From: Natrinema ejinorense
GTDB taxonomy: Archaea; Halobacteriota; Halobacteria; Halobacteriales; Natrialbaceae
NCBI RefSeq assembly: GCF_002494345.1
Contig: NZ_NXNI01000001.1
Location: 1,860,001-1,924,000 of the forward strand
DNA length: 64,000 nt
Direction of reading: 5' to 3'
Shown here: positions 18,625 through 38,196 of the stretch, one piece after another
Layout: each line of letters opens with the position of its first letter
Numbering within the stretch: the stretch's first letter is position 1
Position numbers and translations under genes: made by a program
Notes under the pieces: generated by a model
The model's database searches: none
The model's input: only the letters and a program-made list of their open reading frames with translations
Told to the model about the DNA's origin: nothing

Positions 18625-18955
18625 TCATTGAATATCTCCTGGGGCGAGAGCGTGCTGGATCAGCGGATGATAGCGATCGAATTCGATATTCGAGCCCTGA
18701 ACGTGGAGATTCACCCCTTCCTCGAGATCATCGGGTATGGAGATCGTCCCGCCACCCTTGCTCGGCATTTCCTGCCAACGCGAAGCGATGTGAGTCTGGA
18801 GCGATCGCTCACCGACGACGTCGTCGCCGCTCTCTACGCTGCCTCCCGTCGCCGTCCTTGATCCGACTGTCCCACGCGAAGAACGGATCGAGACCGTGTG
18901 CGGCGAAGCGATAGTGGGCCGCGAACTCGTGGGGCGCGGTCTCGATCGGTTGCAC
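18625..18955 (-). pseudogene. Frameshifted remnant of an unknown gene
   Basis: From a GTG at 18955 the frame reads QPIETAPHEFAAHYRFAAHG, then LDPFFAWDSRIKDGDG. Near 18840-18846 (a GGGAGG tract) the coding signal shifts by one base and continues GSVESGDDVVGERSLQTHI, then MPSKGGGTISIPDDLEEG and HPLIQHALAPGDIQ to a TGA at 18625, followed by a T-run that could terminate transcription. The two halves together are about 110 codons with protein-like composition. One extra base appears to disrupt an otherwise complete gene. I do not recognise the family. Confidence 0.5.
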
Positions 18956-19040
18956 CCGCGCTCACTCCCGTGACGAGAAGCGACGAACAGACCCCTGAGT
19001 AGGGGGGGTGTCGTTCCGGCGTGTAAACCGAGACGGTCAT

Positions 19041-19119
19041 GCCGCCTCCCGGATTTGAACCGAAATCAGACGTGCTCGCTTCGCTGCGCGCGACTGATAG
19101 GGTTCAAAATCCGTTCGGC
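19041..19119. repeat. Mirror unit 1: palindromic echo of the tRNA-Phe 3' end
   Basis: The left arm (with 19040) repeats 22 bp of the tRNA-Phe gene exactly (19040-19061 equals 19162-19183). The right arm, GGTTCAAAATCCG at 19101-19113 plus CGGC at 19116-19119, is its inverted copy with one extra T. Inside, ATCAG (19065-19069) pairs with CTGAT (19094-19098). On the tRNA strand the right arm comes first and is complementary to the tRNA T-arm/acceptor. A separate hairpin GGCTAC-N11-GTAGCC lies at 19131-19153 between unit and tRNA. Confidence 0.8.
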
Positions 19120-19161
19120 GTCGTTTCTTCGGCTACTCACTTCGTTCGTAGCCTCAGAATA

Positions 19162-19235
19162 TGCCGCCTCCCGGATTTGAACCGGGGACAGCTCGATCTT
19201 CAGTCGAGTGCTCTCCCAGTCTGAGCTAAGGCGGC
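19162..19235 (-). tRNA. tRNA-Phe (GAA)
   Basis: 74-nt cloverleaf on the minus strand: acceptor GCCGCCU paired with AGGCGGC, discriminator A, D-arm TAGCTCAGACTGGGAGAGCA, anticodon loop CTGAAGA giving GAA, and T-arm CCGGTTCAAATCCGG. No intron and no encoded CCA. Its 3' end is echoed downstream in mirror unit 1. Transcribed leftwards toward the scarred region. Confidence 0.96.
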
Positions 19236-19456
19236 GCACCTCTATCTCCGTCCATGGTATAAAAAAGGATTTCGAATCGGAATCGTTGTTCCGCCCAGCT
19301 TACACGAAGCCCTACCGGGATCCGAACACTCGAGTATGATCTCGAAAACTCGAGAAGAGGGACGATACTGTGACATCCATGTTCGATTACCTGCCGTCTG
19401 TTGGAACATCGGATATTCAAGACACCCTTTTGCGCCCTGGAAGGTAATATCGTGTT

Positions 19457-19903
19457 ATGGCAGCCCTTACCTCGAGTCAAGAGAACCAAGAACTCGATGC
19501 CGACACGATCCTCGAGCTGTTAGCGAACCGCCGGCGTCGATATCTCCTCTATGCGCTGCGCGGACAGGACGATCCCATCGAACTCTCGACGCTGGCCGAA
19601 ACGGTCGCGGGCTGGGAACACGACGTGCCGCCGGACGAGGTCGCGAAAAACGAGTACAAGAGCGTCTACGTCTCGTCGGTTCAGTGCCACGTTCCGAAAC
19701 TGGACGACGCGGGCGTCGTCAATCACAACGAGGACAACCACACCGTCGTCCTCGCGGACAGCTTCGAGCAACTCGAGCCGTACCTCCAGGTCGTCGTCGA
19801 GGACGAACCGGAGAACTCCACGCTGTACGCCGCCCTCCAGACCGAGTCCGGCGATGGCCTGCTCGGGCAGATTCGGGAGAACGTCGCGCGACTCAAGCAG
19901 TGA
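19457..19903 (+). CDS. Haloarchaeal winged-helix DUF7344-type regulator
   Basis: 148 residues. An N-terminal winged-helix-like segment (residues about 17-95) contains DTILELLANRRRRYLLYALR and VQCHVPKLDDAGVVNHNED, a layout common in a large haloarchaeal family of putative DNA-binding proteins (DUF7344 from memory). The C-terminal part is acidic and helical. ATG at 19457 with a TATA-like TAATATC near -13 to -7 and AT-rich DNA further up. The target is unknown; it stands alone between two tRNA genes. Confidence 0.7.
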   Translation: MAALTSSQENQELDADTILELLANRRRRYLLYALRGQDDPIELSTLAETVAGWEHDVPPDEVAKNEYKSVYVSSVQCHVPKLDDAGVVNHNEDNHTVVLADSFEQLEPYLQVVVEDEPENSTLYAALQTESGDGLLGQIRENVARLKQ

Positions 19904-20093
19904 CTCCCCTCGAGGTGTCGCGATCGTGACAGCGATCGGGTCGAATCGCGTTCGTGCGTGAGTCGAATTCGGTCGGGCTGTGTCTCTCGCTCGAGCGTAC
20001 CGCGTCCGCACTCGTCTCCGTCTCTGTTGCTCACGAGGTTTCGCGTCACACACCTGCTGCTCGCGAGAGTGCTCGCAGCAGGAAGTGGGCTCG

Positions 20094-20156
20094 GGCGGGT
20101 TCGAACCACCTGAACTTCGCTCGCTTGCGCTCGCTCGTTCCGTCGTTCGAACCGCC
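20094..20156. repeat. Mirror unit 2: palindromic echo of the tRNA-Val 3' end
   Basis: A 27-bp exact copy of the tRNA-Val end and 2 bp beyond it (20084-20110 equals 20202-20228) supplies the left arm GGCGGGTTCGAAC (20094-20106); the right arm GTTCGAACCGCC is at 20145-20156, with an inner pair GAAC (20112-20115)/GTTC (20137-20140). Flanking simple hairpins are TGCTGCCGC-N13-GCGGCAGCA at 20169-20199, between unit and tRNA, and CTGCTGC-N14-GCAGCAG at 20054-20081 on the far side. Confidence 0.8.
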
Positions 20157-20203
20157 GCTCGATCACAATGCTGCCGCTCACGAGTTGTTCGCGGCAGCAA
20201 TAG

Positions 20204-20277
20204 TGGGCTCGGGCGGGTTCGAACCACCGACCTCGGCCTTGTAAAGGCCGCGTCATGACCAGCTAGACCACGAGCCC
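20204..20277 (-). tRNA. tRNA-Val (TAC)
   Basis: 74-nt cloverleaf on the minus strand: acceptor GGGCTCG/CGAGCCC, discriminator A, D-arm GGTCTAGCTGGTCATGAC, anticodon stem-loop CGGCC-TTTACAA-GGCCG with anticodon TAC, and T-arm GGTGG-TTCGAAC-CCGCC. No intron, no encoded CCA. The 3' end is echoed in mirror unit 2. Confidence 0.96.
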
Positions 20278-20339
20278 GTACCCGAGACGAGTAGATCCGT
20301 CCGAATAACCTTTACTCTCTCGTCGCGCAGCTATCGTCC

Positions 20340-21083
20340 ATGGCCTTCGAGTACGTATGGAAGGGAGTGCTGGTGATTGCGATCCTTTCTATCGCCGGCG
20401 TCGTCCTCGTTCAGGCGGGACTCGTTTCTGCTCCCTGGGGCCCTGACGAGGGAGAGGTTCGCGTTTTCGGGGACGACTCCGACGGCGGATCGACCGGCGA
20501 AGTCGAAAACGAACCGGGCACTGAAGCCACCGCCGACAGCGGTGACTCCGCAACCGACACCGATGGGACCGACGACTCGAGAGACGAACCCGACAGCCCC
20601 GATGGCAACGCTAGTGAACCGAAAGCCGTCGTCGATGTCGAAATCGCGGACTCCGCTACGGAACGGTACACCGGCCTAAGCGACCACGACACCCTCGAGC
20701 GGGGCACTGGGATGTTGTTCATCCACAGTAGCGAGGACGAGCAAACCTACGTGATGCGCGAGATGGACTTCGATATCGATATTATCTTCATCGGTGCCGA
20801 CCGCGAGATCACGACGATCCACCACGCCCGCGCGCCCGGTCCAAACGAGAACGGGAACGATCTCCAGTACTCGGGCCAGGCGAAGTGGGTCCTCGAGGTG
20901 CCACGCGGGTACACGAACGAAACGGGGATCGAAGTCGGTGACGAGGTTGAGATCGACCTCGAGTCGAACCGAACGATCATTACCAGTGTCGGTACCGACG
21001 CGCCCGAGCGAGTCGCCGCGACGGCGGATCGCGACGTGGTCGCACCCGAAGCCGTCGCCGCGGGGACCTATTTCGATTCGTAG
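20340..21083 (+). CDS. DUF192 domain protein, membrane-anchored
   Basis: 247 residues. A single N-terminal helix (GVLVIAILSIAGVVLVQAGL, residues 9-28) anchors an acidic Asp/Glu/Thr linker of about 60 residues, followed by DUF192 (residues about 100-215) with RYTGLSDHDTLERGTGMLF, YVMREMDFDIDIIFIGADRE and QYSGQAKWVLEVPRG. DUF192 is a small beta domain of unknown function, often exported. The acidic linker is a typical haloarchaeal spacer. ATG at 20340; 37 bp before the ABC exporter gene, so possibly co-transcribed with it. Confidence 0.9.
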   Translation: MAFEYVWKGVLVIAILSIAGVVLVQAGLVSAPWGPDEGEVRVFGDDSDGGSTGEVENEPGTEATADSGDSATDTDGTDDSRDEPDSPDGNASEPKAVVDVEIADSATERYTGLSDHDTLERGTGMLFIHSSEDEQTYVMREMDFDIDIIFIGADREITTIHHARAPGPNENGNDLQYSGQAKWVLEVPRGYTNETGIEVGDEVEIDLESNRTIITSVGTDAPERVAATADRDVVAPEAVAAGTYFDS

Positions 21084-37651: not shown

Positions 37652-37862
37652 GCTATCGCTAGGGACGCGACACTGTTAACTCTCTCGCCAAACCCGCTTT
37701 GTGAGCGCCGCTTAACTGTCTTGGAGGCTGTTTCGTTACCTGCGGAAGGAACGCTCAACACCGCGACCTCCTTGGTCGTCGTTCGGACAGCCGTCACTCG
37801 TCGCCGGCGGTTTCTGCCTCGAGTCGGCCTCGGTATCTTCAAGCGAGGTTCACGAACGGCCT

Positions 37863-37936
37863 GGGTGCGAGAATCGAACCACGGCCGTTCGGCTCACTGC
37901 GTTCGCTTCGCTCCCTGGTTCGATTTCGCCTTCCGG
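37863..37936. repeat. Mirror unit 4: distal echo of the tRNA-His 3' end
   Basis: The left arm carries 18 bp of the tRNA-His end (37863-37880). GCGAGAATCGAACCA (37867-37881) pairs with TGGTTCGATTTCGC at 37916-37929, with one unpaired base, around a loop rich in TTCGC. A further CCGG follows at 37933-37936. A simple hairpin CGGAGC-N9-GCTCCG lies between this unit and unit 3, at 37962-37982. Confidence 0.78.
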
Positions 37937-38023
37937 CTCCTCCACTCCTCCCTGTGGCTCCCGGAGCGACATTGCCGCTCCGAGCAGTCGCTCACTTCGC
38001 TCGCGACGACGTCGTGAAAAAGT

Positions 38024-38095
38024 CCGGGTGCGAGAATCGAACCCGACTGCGAGACTCGTTTCACTCGTCTCGCGTGGTTCGATCTCGCCTTCCGG
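38024..38095. repeat. Mirror unit 3: proximal echo of the tRNA-His 3' end
   Basis: Positions 38019-38045 repeat 27 bp at the tRNA-His 3' end (38121-38147) exactly. The right arm GGTTCGATCTCGCC...CCGG (38076-38095) is an inverted, partly diverged copy. In the middle GCGAGAC (38049-38055) pairs perfectly with GTCTCGC (38067-38073) around the 11-nt loop TCGTTTCACTC. As in the other units, the arm nearest the tRNA is complementary to its T-arm. Confidence 0.8.
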
Positions 38096-38123
38096 CCTTC
38101 TTCGTCACTACGTTCCTCAGAAA

Positions 38124-38196
38124 GTCCGGGTGCGAGAATCGAACCCGCGTCTCAGCCTCCACAAGGCTGAAGGATAACCACTACCCCAACCCGGAC
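38124..38196 (-). tRNA. tRNA-His (GTG)
   Basis: 73 nt on the minus strand including the encoded extra G at position -1: GTCCGGGT pairs over 8 bp with ACCCGGAC. Anticodon loop TTGTGGA with anticodon GTG, flanked by CAGCC/GGCTG. T-arm GCGGG-TTCGATT-CTCGC. No encoded CCA. Two mirror units lie downstream. Confidence 0.95.

Follow-up and report, generated by a model that had tools for sequence, protein, structure and literature searches.

We analysed a window of 64,000 nucleotides from Natrinema ejinorense (contig NZ_NXNI01000001.1, positions 1,860,001 to 1,924,000). All three tRNA genes of the window are followed by structured units, one behind tRNA-Phe, one behind tRNA-Val and two behind tRNA-His. 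Read in the sense of the tRNA, the Val unit runs from the tail (T54 to position 73) through a hairpin (HP1), a 12-nt inverted copy of the T-arm and a 39-nt core to an exact copy of the tail. The features, with the evidence for each, are the following.

20203..20277, minus strand: tRNA-Val(tac), host of the Val unit (ARAGORN; Rfam RF00005, 63.6 bits)
20204..20223, minus strand: tail of tRNA-Val, T54 to position 73, 20 nt, TTCGAACCCGCCCGAGCCCA (sequence)
20169..20199, minus strand: HP1 of the Val unit, a hairpin with a tandem GA/GA internal loop, TGCTGCCGC-GA-AC-AACTC-GT-GA-GCGGCAGCA (sequence; hairpin scan)
20145..20156, minus strand: inverted T-arm copy of the Val unit, 12 nt, sense GGCGGTTCGAAC (sequence; family-wide profile; position-57 tracking)
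20106..20144, minus strand: palindromic core of the Val unit (HP2), 39 nt, GACGGAACGAGCGAGCGCAAGCGAGCGAAGTTCAGGTGG (sequence; core-class comparison)
20086..20105, minus strand: tail copy, exact at 20/20, closing the Val unit and lying inside the 27-bp match at 20084-20110 (sequence)
20053..20082, minus strand: second HP1-like hairpin, past the Val copy, CCTGCTGC-GA-GC-ACTCTC-GC-GA-GCAGCAGG (sequence; hairpin scan; comparison with genome G055)
19162..19235, minus strand: tRNA-Phe(gaa) (ARAGORN)
19040..19161, minus strand: tRNA-Phe unit, made of HP1, inverted T-arm, core CCCTATCAGTCGCGCGCAGCGAAGCGAGCACGTCTGATTTCGG and tail copy (sequence)
19040-19059, minus strand: exact tail copy ending the tRNA-Phe unit
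38123..38196, minus strand: tRNA-His(gtg) (ARAGORN)
38022..38123, minus strand: first tRNA-His unit, with its tail copy at 38022-38041 (20/20)
37859..38021, minus strand: second tRNA-His unit, in tandem, with its tail copy at 37859-37878 (18/20)

A preliminary description of the Val locus had reported a 27-bp direct copy of the tRNA end together with a 12-nt inverted copy, and its coordinates proved right when the sequence was re-read: the direct match joins 20084-20110 to 20202-20228, and the inverted 12-mer at 20145-20156 is GTTCGAACCGCC. The inverted copy is complementary to T54 onwards in both the tRNA tail and the tail copy. The core belongs to a class that is also present in Asp, Leu-tag and Gly-tcc units at other loci and in other genomes. 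The hairpin at 20053..20082 is a remnant of a further unit; an HP1 of the same type lies directly behind tRNA-Val in G055, a second genome of the same species as the window genome (G000). Over positions 18700-20500 of the window, Rfam 15 gave only tRNA above the gathering score and no other curated family.

A tail copy was scored when at least 15 of the 20 bases of a tRNA's own tail (T54-73) recurred within 300 nt downstream, and an inverted copy when at least 8 of 10 bases matched ahead of that copy. Own-tail copies follow 16 of the 44 tRNAs of the genome, 14 of these 16 with an inverted copy as well, as against a mean of 0.07 tRNAs and a maximum of 2 in 200 sets of first-order Markov shuffles. 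The upstream control gave a single tRNA, a tandem tRNA-Asp. The set was also widened to 192 tRNAs of this and related genomes: own-tail copies were found for 99 of them, and copies of another tRNA's tail for none; the regions outside the window genome were partly picked for known units, and 99/192 is therefore not a frequency, while the 0/192 control holds. The tail copy is perfect (20/20) in 85 of 140 units. The inverted copy at Val by itself is weak evidence because TTCGAA is palindromic. Across 108 units the evidence is strong: in 102 of them the inverted arm carries the complement of T-loop base 57.

The inserts are 42-181 nt long, with a median of 101. In the profile of all units the direct copy has a sharp start at G53|T54 and extends to position 73; outward from position -2, identity is close to what composition predicts. 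In an ungapped profile the inverted arm is a dependable complement of T54-61 and a partial one of 62-65, with background beyond; a full-length acceptor complement was considered for this arm and is restricted to some units (Ile, Arg-cct, Val-tac and others). In the copy, acceptor bases 62-73 retain about 95% identity, the inverted arm pairing only with about T54-65. Within an array the last tail is the less well preserved (18.9 of 20 bases, against 19.6 for the inner tails), which selection on the first tail alone would predict.

The cores can be grouped into classes, each of which may be represented at different tRNAs and in different genomes and genera. The same core recurs behind Val, Phe, Cys and Arg-cct, its arms matching each tRNA, and when two cores were traced through 101 genomes of the family, every match lay just behind a tRNA (Val, Phe, Cys, Arg-cct, Leu-taa, Ser-cga or Gln), in the tRNA sense and between fitted arms. 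That the arms follow their own tRNA, as originally proposed, is borne out by 33 tRNA kinds among 226 distinct units. On the other hand, the proposal that the bases are unrelated from one tRNA to the next, and the recurrence independent, does not stand: palindromic cores are shared between tRNAs and genera, sometimes at 40/40 positions, and only the arms differ. The recurrence thus points to a common module fitted to each tRNA rather than to independent inventions. The original exclusion of one ancestral tRNA duplication was sound; the units occur at many tRNAs at a rate far above chance, and arms and tails that differ by tRNA around shared cores rule such a duplication out. No foreign tRNA tails were found in the arrays. 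Core sharing between tRNA kinds is not in excess within genomes over that between genomes, so that no sign of recent hopping inside a genome was seen.

Between G000 and G055 the flanks are almost the same and the genes identical at most matched tRNAs; the arrays differ. Unit number is different at 14 of the 20 tRNA kinds that bear units in either genome. At Phe and Arg-cct there is one unit in G000 and a clean empty site in G055 (for Phe, also in other Natrinema), at Ser-gga the reverse, and at Ile two units stand against one, joined at the inverted T-loop. At Val the same core lies behind a different HP1 in the two genomes. Across species tRNA-Val carries from 0 to 4 tandem units, and at Phe one of two N. 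hispanicum records has a unit more than the other. The recurrence had been taken to argue for a mechanism or a selected function. Some mechanism or selection is indeed needed, but a selected function is not favoured by units that turn over at the level of strains.

To describe the distribution we used a generic unit pattern, consisting of T-loop, inverted T-loop and T-loop at the right spacing. It matches 180 of 194 Halobacteria genomes and 62 of 65 genera, while the reversed pattern has no match in any Halobacteria genome. Among 124 genomes of the phylum that lie outside Halobacteria there were 2 matches, both of which look incidental. Fewer than half of a genome's tRNAs carry a unit. Three identical copies of tRNA-Ala(tgc) with near-identical downstream sequence (L041, L056, L065) never carry units; they are probably the copies in rRNA operons, which would be unfavourable sites for an insert. 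A tandem pair of identical tRNA-Asp genes (G000 C1 3,112,686-3,113,129; L002/L061) has a unit behind each gene, with different cores.

The hairpins are strongly asymmetric between strands. In the tRNA sense, tandem mismatches are GA/GA in 123 cases and TC/TC in 3, T.G exceeds A.C beside the T-loop stem by 52 to 1, GCGAAGC exceeds GCTTCGC by 72 to 8, and GCGAGC and GTGAG are also far commoner than their complements; these cells are not independent, as core classes share ancestry, but the direction is uniform. In the other stems there is no clear bias (G.U 49 versus A.C 32, p = 0.07; 15 versus 21 in a smaller set). In class A, the largest core class, the inner stems have standard pairs in 64/67 and 61/67 cases and covary through at least three pair types, with no G.U in the four inner pairs of the 67 stems. 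Conserved unpaired motifs lie between the variable core stems. The folded structure is therefore constrained although the units turn over between strains, and the sense strand is the strand that folds, as RNA or as single-stranded DNA. The motif GCGAAGC forms an unusually stable DNA mini-hairpin, a link that we regard as a lead and not as proof. Hairpins of this GA/GA style (e.g., CTTCACGAACGAAGTGAGTGAAG) also occur, in small number, downstream of protein genes, in the gene sense and away from tRNAs (L058, L059, L063, L071), and perhaps represent a broader type of 3'-end hairpin in haloarchaea.

The reading we favour, while rating it equally likely to be right or wrong, is that the units are structured DNA cassettes flanked by tails, and that recombination at the tail would add, remove and exchange them whole, within tRNA-specific pools. 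The observations behind it are the anatomy with its G53|T54 boundary, the tandem arrays, the clean gain and loss between strains, the shared cores with fitted arms and the constraint on the sense strand; from these we infer gain, loss and exchange at the level of DNA, through the repeated tail. Duplication of the tail leaves the tRNA gene complete whether or not a cassette is there, making the cassette neutral for the tRNA. What is more, the copied bases 62-73 are retained though nothing in the fold pairs with them, while the presence of a unit is optional and unstable, and we read this combination as recombination at the tail. Because no foreign tails occur in the arrays and cores are not shared more within genomes, exchange seems confined to one tRNA kind, which favours either a tail-specific recombinase or homology through the tRNA and its tail. 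A free pool of cassettes recombining at the universal GTTC was also considered; it predicts foreign tails in distal array positions, none was found, and exchange must hence be tail-specific or homologous.

In such a scheme, exchange would take place mostly inside pools specific to one tRNA kind. It would probably be carried out by a putative recombinase specific for tRNA tails, perhaps supplied by elements that integrate at these tRNAs; no recombinase linked to the arrays was found. The enzyme might act on the folded sense strand, or be helped by it, as at integron attC sites, with the T-loop arms as the recombination core and the core hairpin as the part recognised by its structure. Homologous recombination through the tRNA gene and tail may do part of the exchange, and losses could be explained by repeat-mediated deletion alone. 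Rare transfer of a core without its tail would be needed to place one core class between the fitted arms of different tRNAs.

The main rival, possible though clearly less probable, is an RNA element: the tRNA transcript would include the unit as a structured 3' trailer, acting in termination, in 3'-end processing or as a regulator of tRNA folding, the inverted T-arm of the unit would pair with the T-loop of either the tRNA or the copy, and the fold would be maintained by selection. The units always lie behind a tRNA and in its sense, HP1 often starts in a T-run right behind the tRNA like an archaeal terminator, and the GA/GA loops and T.G wobbles on the sense strand, the stems covarying around conserved internal loops and the similar hairpins behind protein genes would all be in keeping with a transcribed structure. 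However, an element that is missing behind more than half of a genome's tRNAs and turns over within a species is hard to reconcile with such a role. Moreover, the preservation of bases 62-73, when the arm pairs only with about T54-65, fits a DNA duplication and not an RNA fold, and neither the lack of G.U in the inner class-A pairs nor the lack of a clear bias between G.U and A.C in the other stems speaks for pairing in RNA.

A mutational by-product, arising by template switching or fold-back synthesis at forks stalled on tRNA genes and involving no machinery or function, is unlikely. Two fold-backs would yield an alternation of tail and inverted tail with a hairpin at each turn, the arms are local copies of each tRNA, and the inner core stems pair without G.U. 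Such a process would not, however, be expected to share core classes across tRNAs and genera, to fix the start of the direct copy at G53|T54 or to be essentially absent outside Halobacteria, and conserved mismatched loops within stems, together with a strict strand asymmetry, are unexpected from random switching.

Even less probable is the scar of an integrated virus or plasmid, by which the unit would be what remains of an element integrated at the tRNA tail, its two ends without the interior. Archaeal integrases that target tRNAs typically have such a tail as their att core (PMC8371274), and at tRNA-Gly(tcc) a stretch of 2.37 kb (L036 5980-8336; G000 C1 ~452,980-455,336) lies between the tRNA and its unit with exact 20-nt tail copies on both sides. 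This stretch holds an HTH-like ORF and a hypothetical ORF, with no integrase recognised by eye, and, being flanked by the same tail, it indicates that the tail also marks larger insertions. The units, though, are uniform in size, tandem and built on structured cores shared across tRNA kinds. A viral, phage or plasmid carrier was rejected as well: the core patterns had 0 matches in IMG/VR, the generic pattern hit only unrelated contigs among the matches listed there, and blastn of the Val unit against phage and plasmid collections gave nothing similar. Chance, finally, by which a self-complementary T-loop would yield short matches only and the TTCGAA palindrome makes a 12-nt inverted match cheap, is refuted with near certainty by the shuffles (0.07 versus 16 tRNAs), the swapped tails (0/192) and the reversed pattern (0 in each genome).

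Among known systems the cassettes most resemble integrons, whose attC sites have inverted cores around a variable palindrome with unpaired interruptions and are used as one folded strand (PMC3053210, PMC2727003). As there, the tRNA units form tandem arrays at one fixed site, are bounded by a G|TT... core, and are folded, strand-biased imperfect palindromes between inverted cores of 7-8 nt (GRTTYGAAC in the tRNA units). They differ in that the core is GTTCRAA / TTYGAAC, with C at position 4, instead of GTTRRRY / RYYYAAC, that the cassettes carry no gene, and that there are many platforms per genome, all of them tRNA tails and each with its own tail sequence. The integron integrase IntI (TIGR02249) was found above the curated cut-off in 0 of 39 Halobacteria genomes. 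Membership among integrons is rejected on the core consensus and this lack of IntI; the likeness to attC is architectural and serves as a working comparison. As to cassette excision or integration, what was seen is the presence or absence of whole units between strains. We can only tentatively suggest an integron-like, gene-free system in which docking at the T-loop and a tail-specific recombinase would move small, folded single-stranded cassettes between strains, each giving the tRNA a fresh 3' end and possibly acting as a decoy or buffer against integrating elements.

Other systems each share one trait only with the units. Archaeal tyrosine integrases that target tRNAs use the 3' end of the gene, and the duplicated tail restores the tRNA (PMC8371274). 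The tRNA 3' end and duplicated tail are the same here, but those elements are kilobase-sized and carry genes, whereas the units are about 100 bp, gene-free, structured and tandem; an integrated provirus or plasmid is rejected since the 42-181 nt between tRNA and tail copy hold no integrase or other gene. The PATEs, SMRs and MITEs of Haloquadratum are short palindromic non-coding repeats without a transposase; PATEs and SMRs make no target duplication, and PATEs lack terminal inverted repeats and are related to IS605 (PMC3119063). They resemble the units in being short, palindromic, non-coding, haloarchaeal and transposase-free, but are not tied to tRNAs. Compared with MITEs, the sole inverted ends of the units are the T-arm of the host tRNA, differing by tRNA, and no autonomous relative was found in the part of the transposons that was searched. 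Casposons encode Cas1 and PolB, and their tRNA-associated targets overlap only the last 4-7 nt of the tRNA gene (PMC4046053). In casposon insertion and CRISPR repeat duplication, too, a short target is duplicated beside a tRNA 3' end or leader, and CRISPR arrays are polarised; the units, by contrast with casposons, have no genes and a duplication of 20-21 nt from T54.

In the papers that could be searched, among them few subscription papers, no description of tRNA-tail cassettes was found; they seem to be undescribed, although an earlier account may exist. In the window species about one tRNA gene in three has such a structured element behind it. The cassettes were detected in almost all haloarchaeal genomes searched, and link tRNA genes, palindromes and site-specific recombination. 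They could explain the variable neighbourhoods of tRNA genes in haloarchaea and the coexistence of integrating elements with those genes, and two strains of one species that differ at 14 tRNA kinds provide a direct test system. In genome G008 the tip of the core is expanded by nested hairpins of about 60 bp (GATCGGAAGACGC...) at tRNA-Val (L112/L120), and the same kind of expansion is seen at Ser-tga (L128); these core-tip inserts are nearly identical in two different tRNA units of different genomes.
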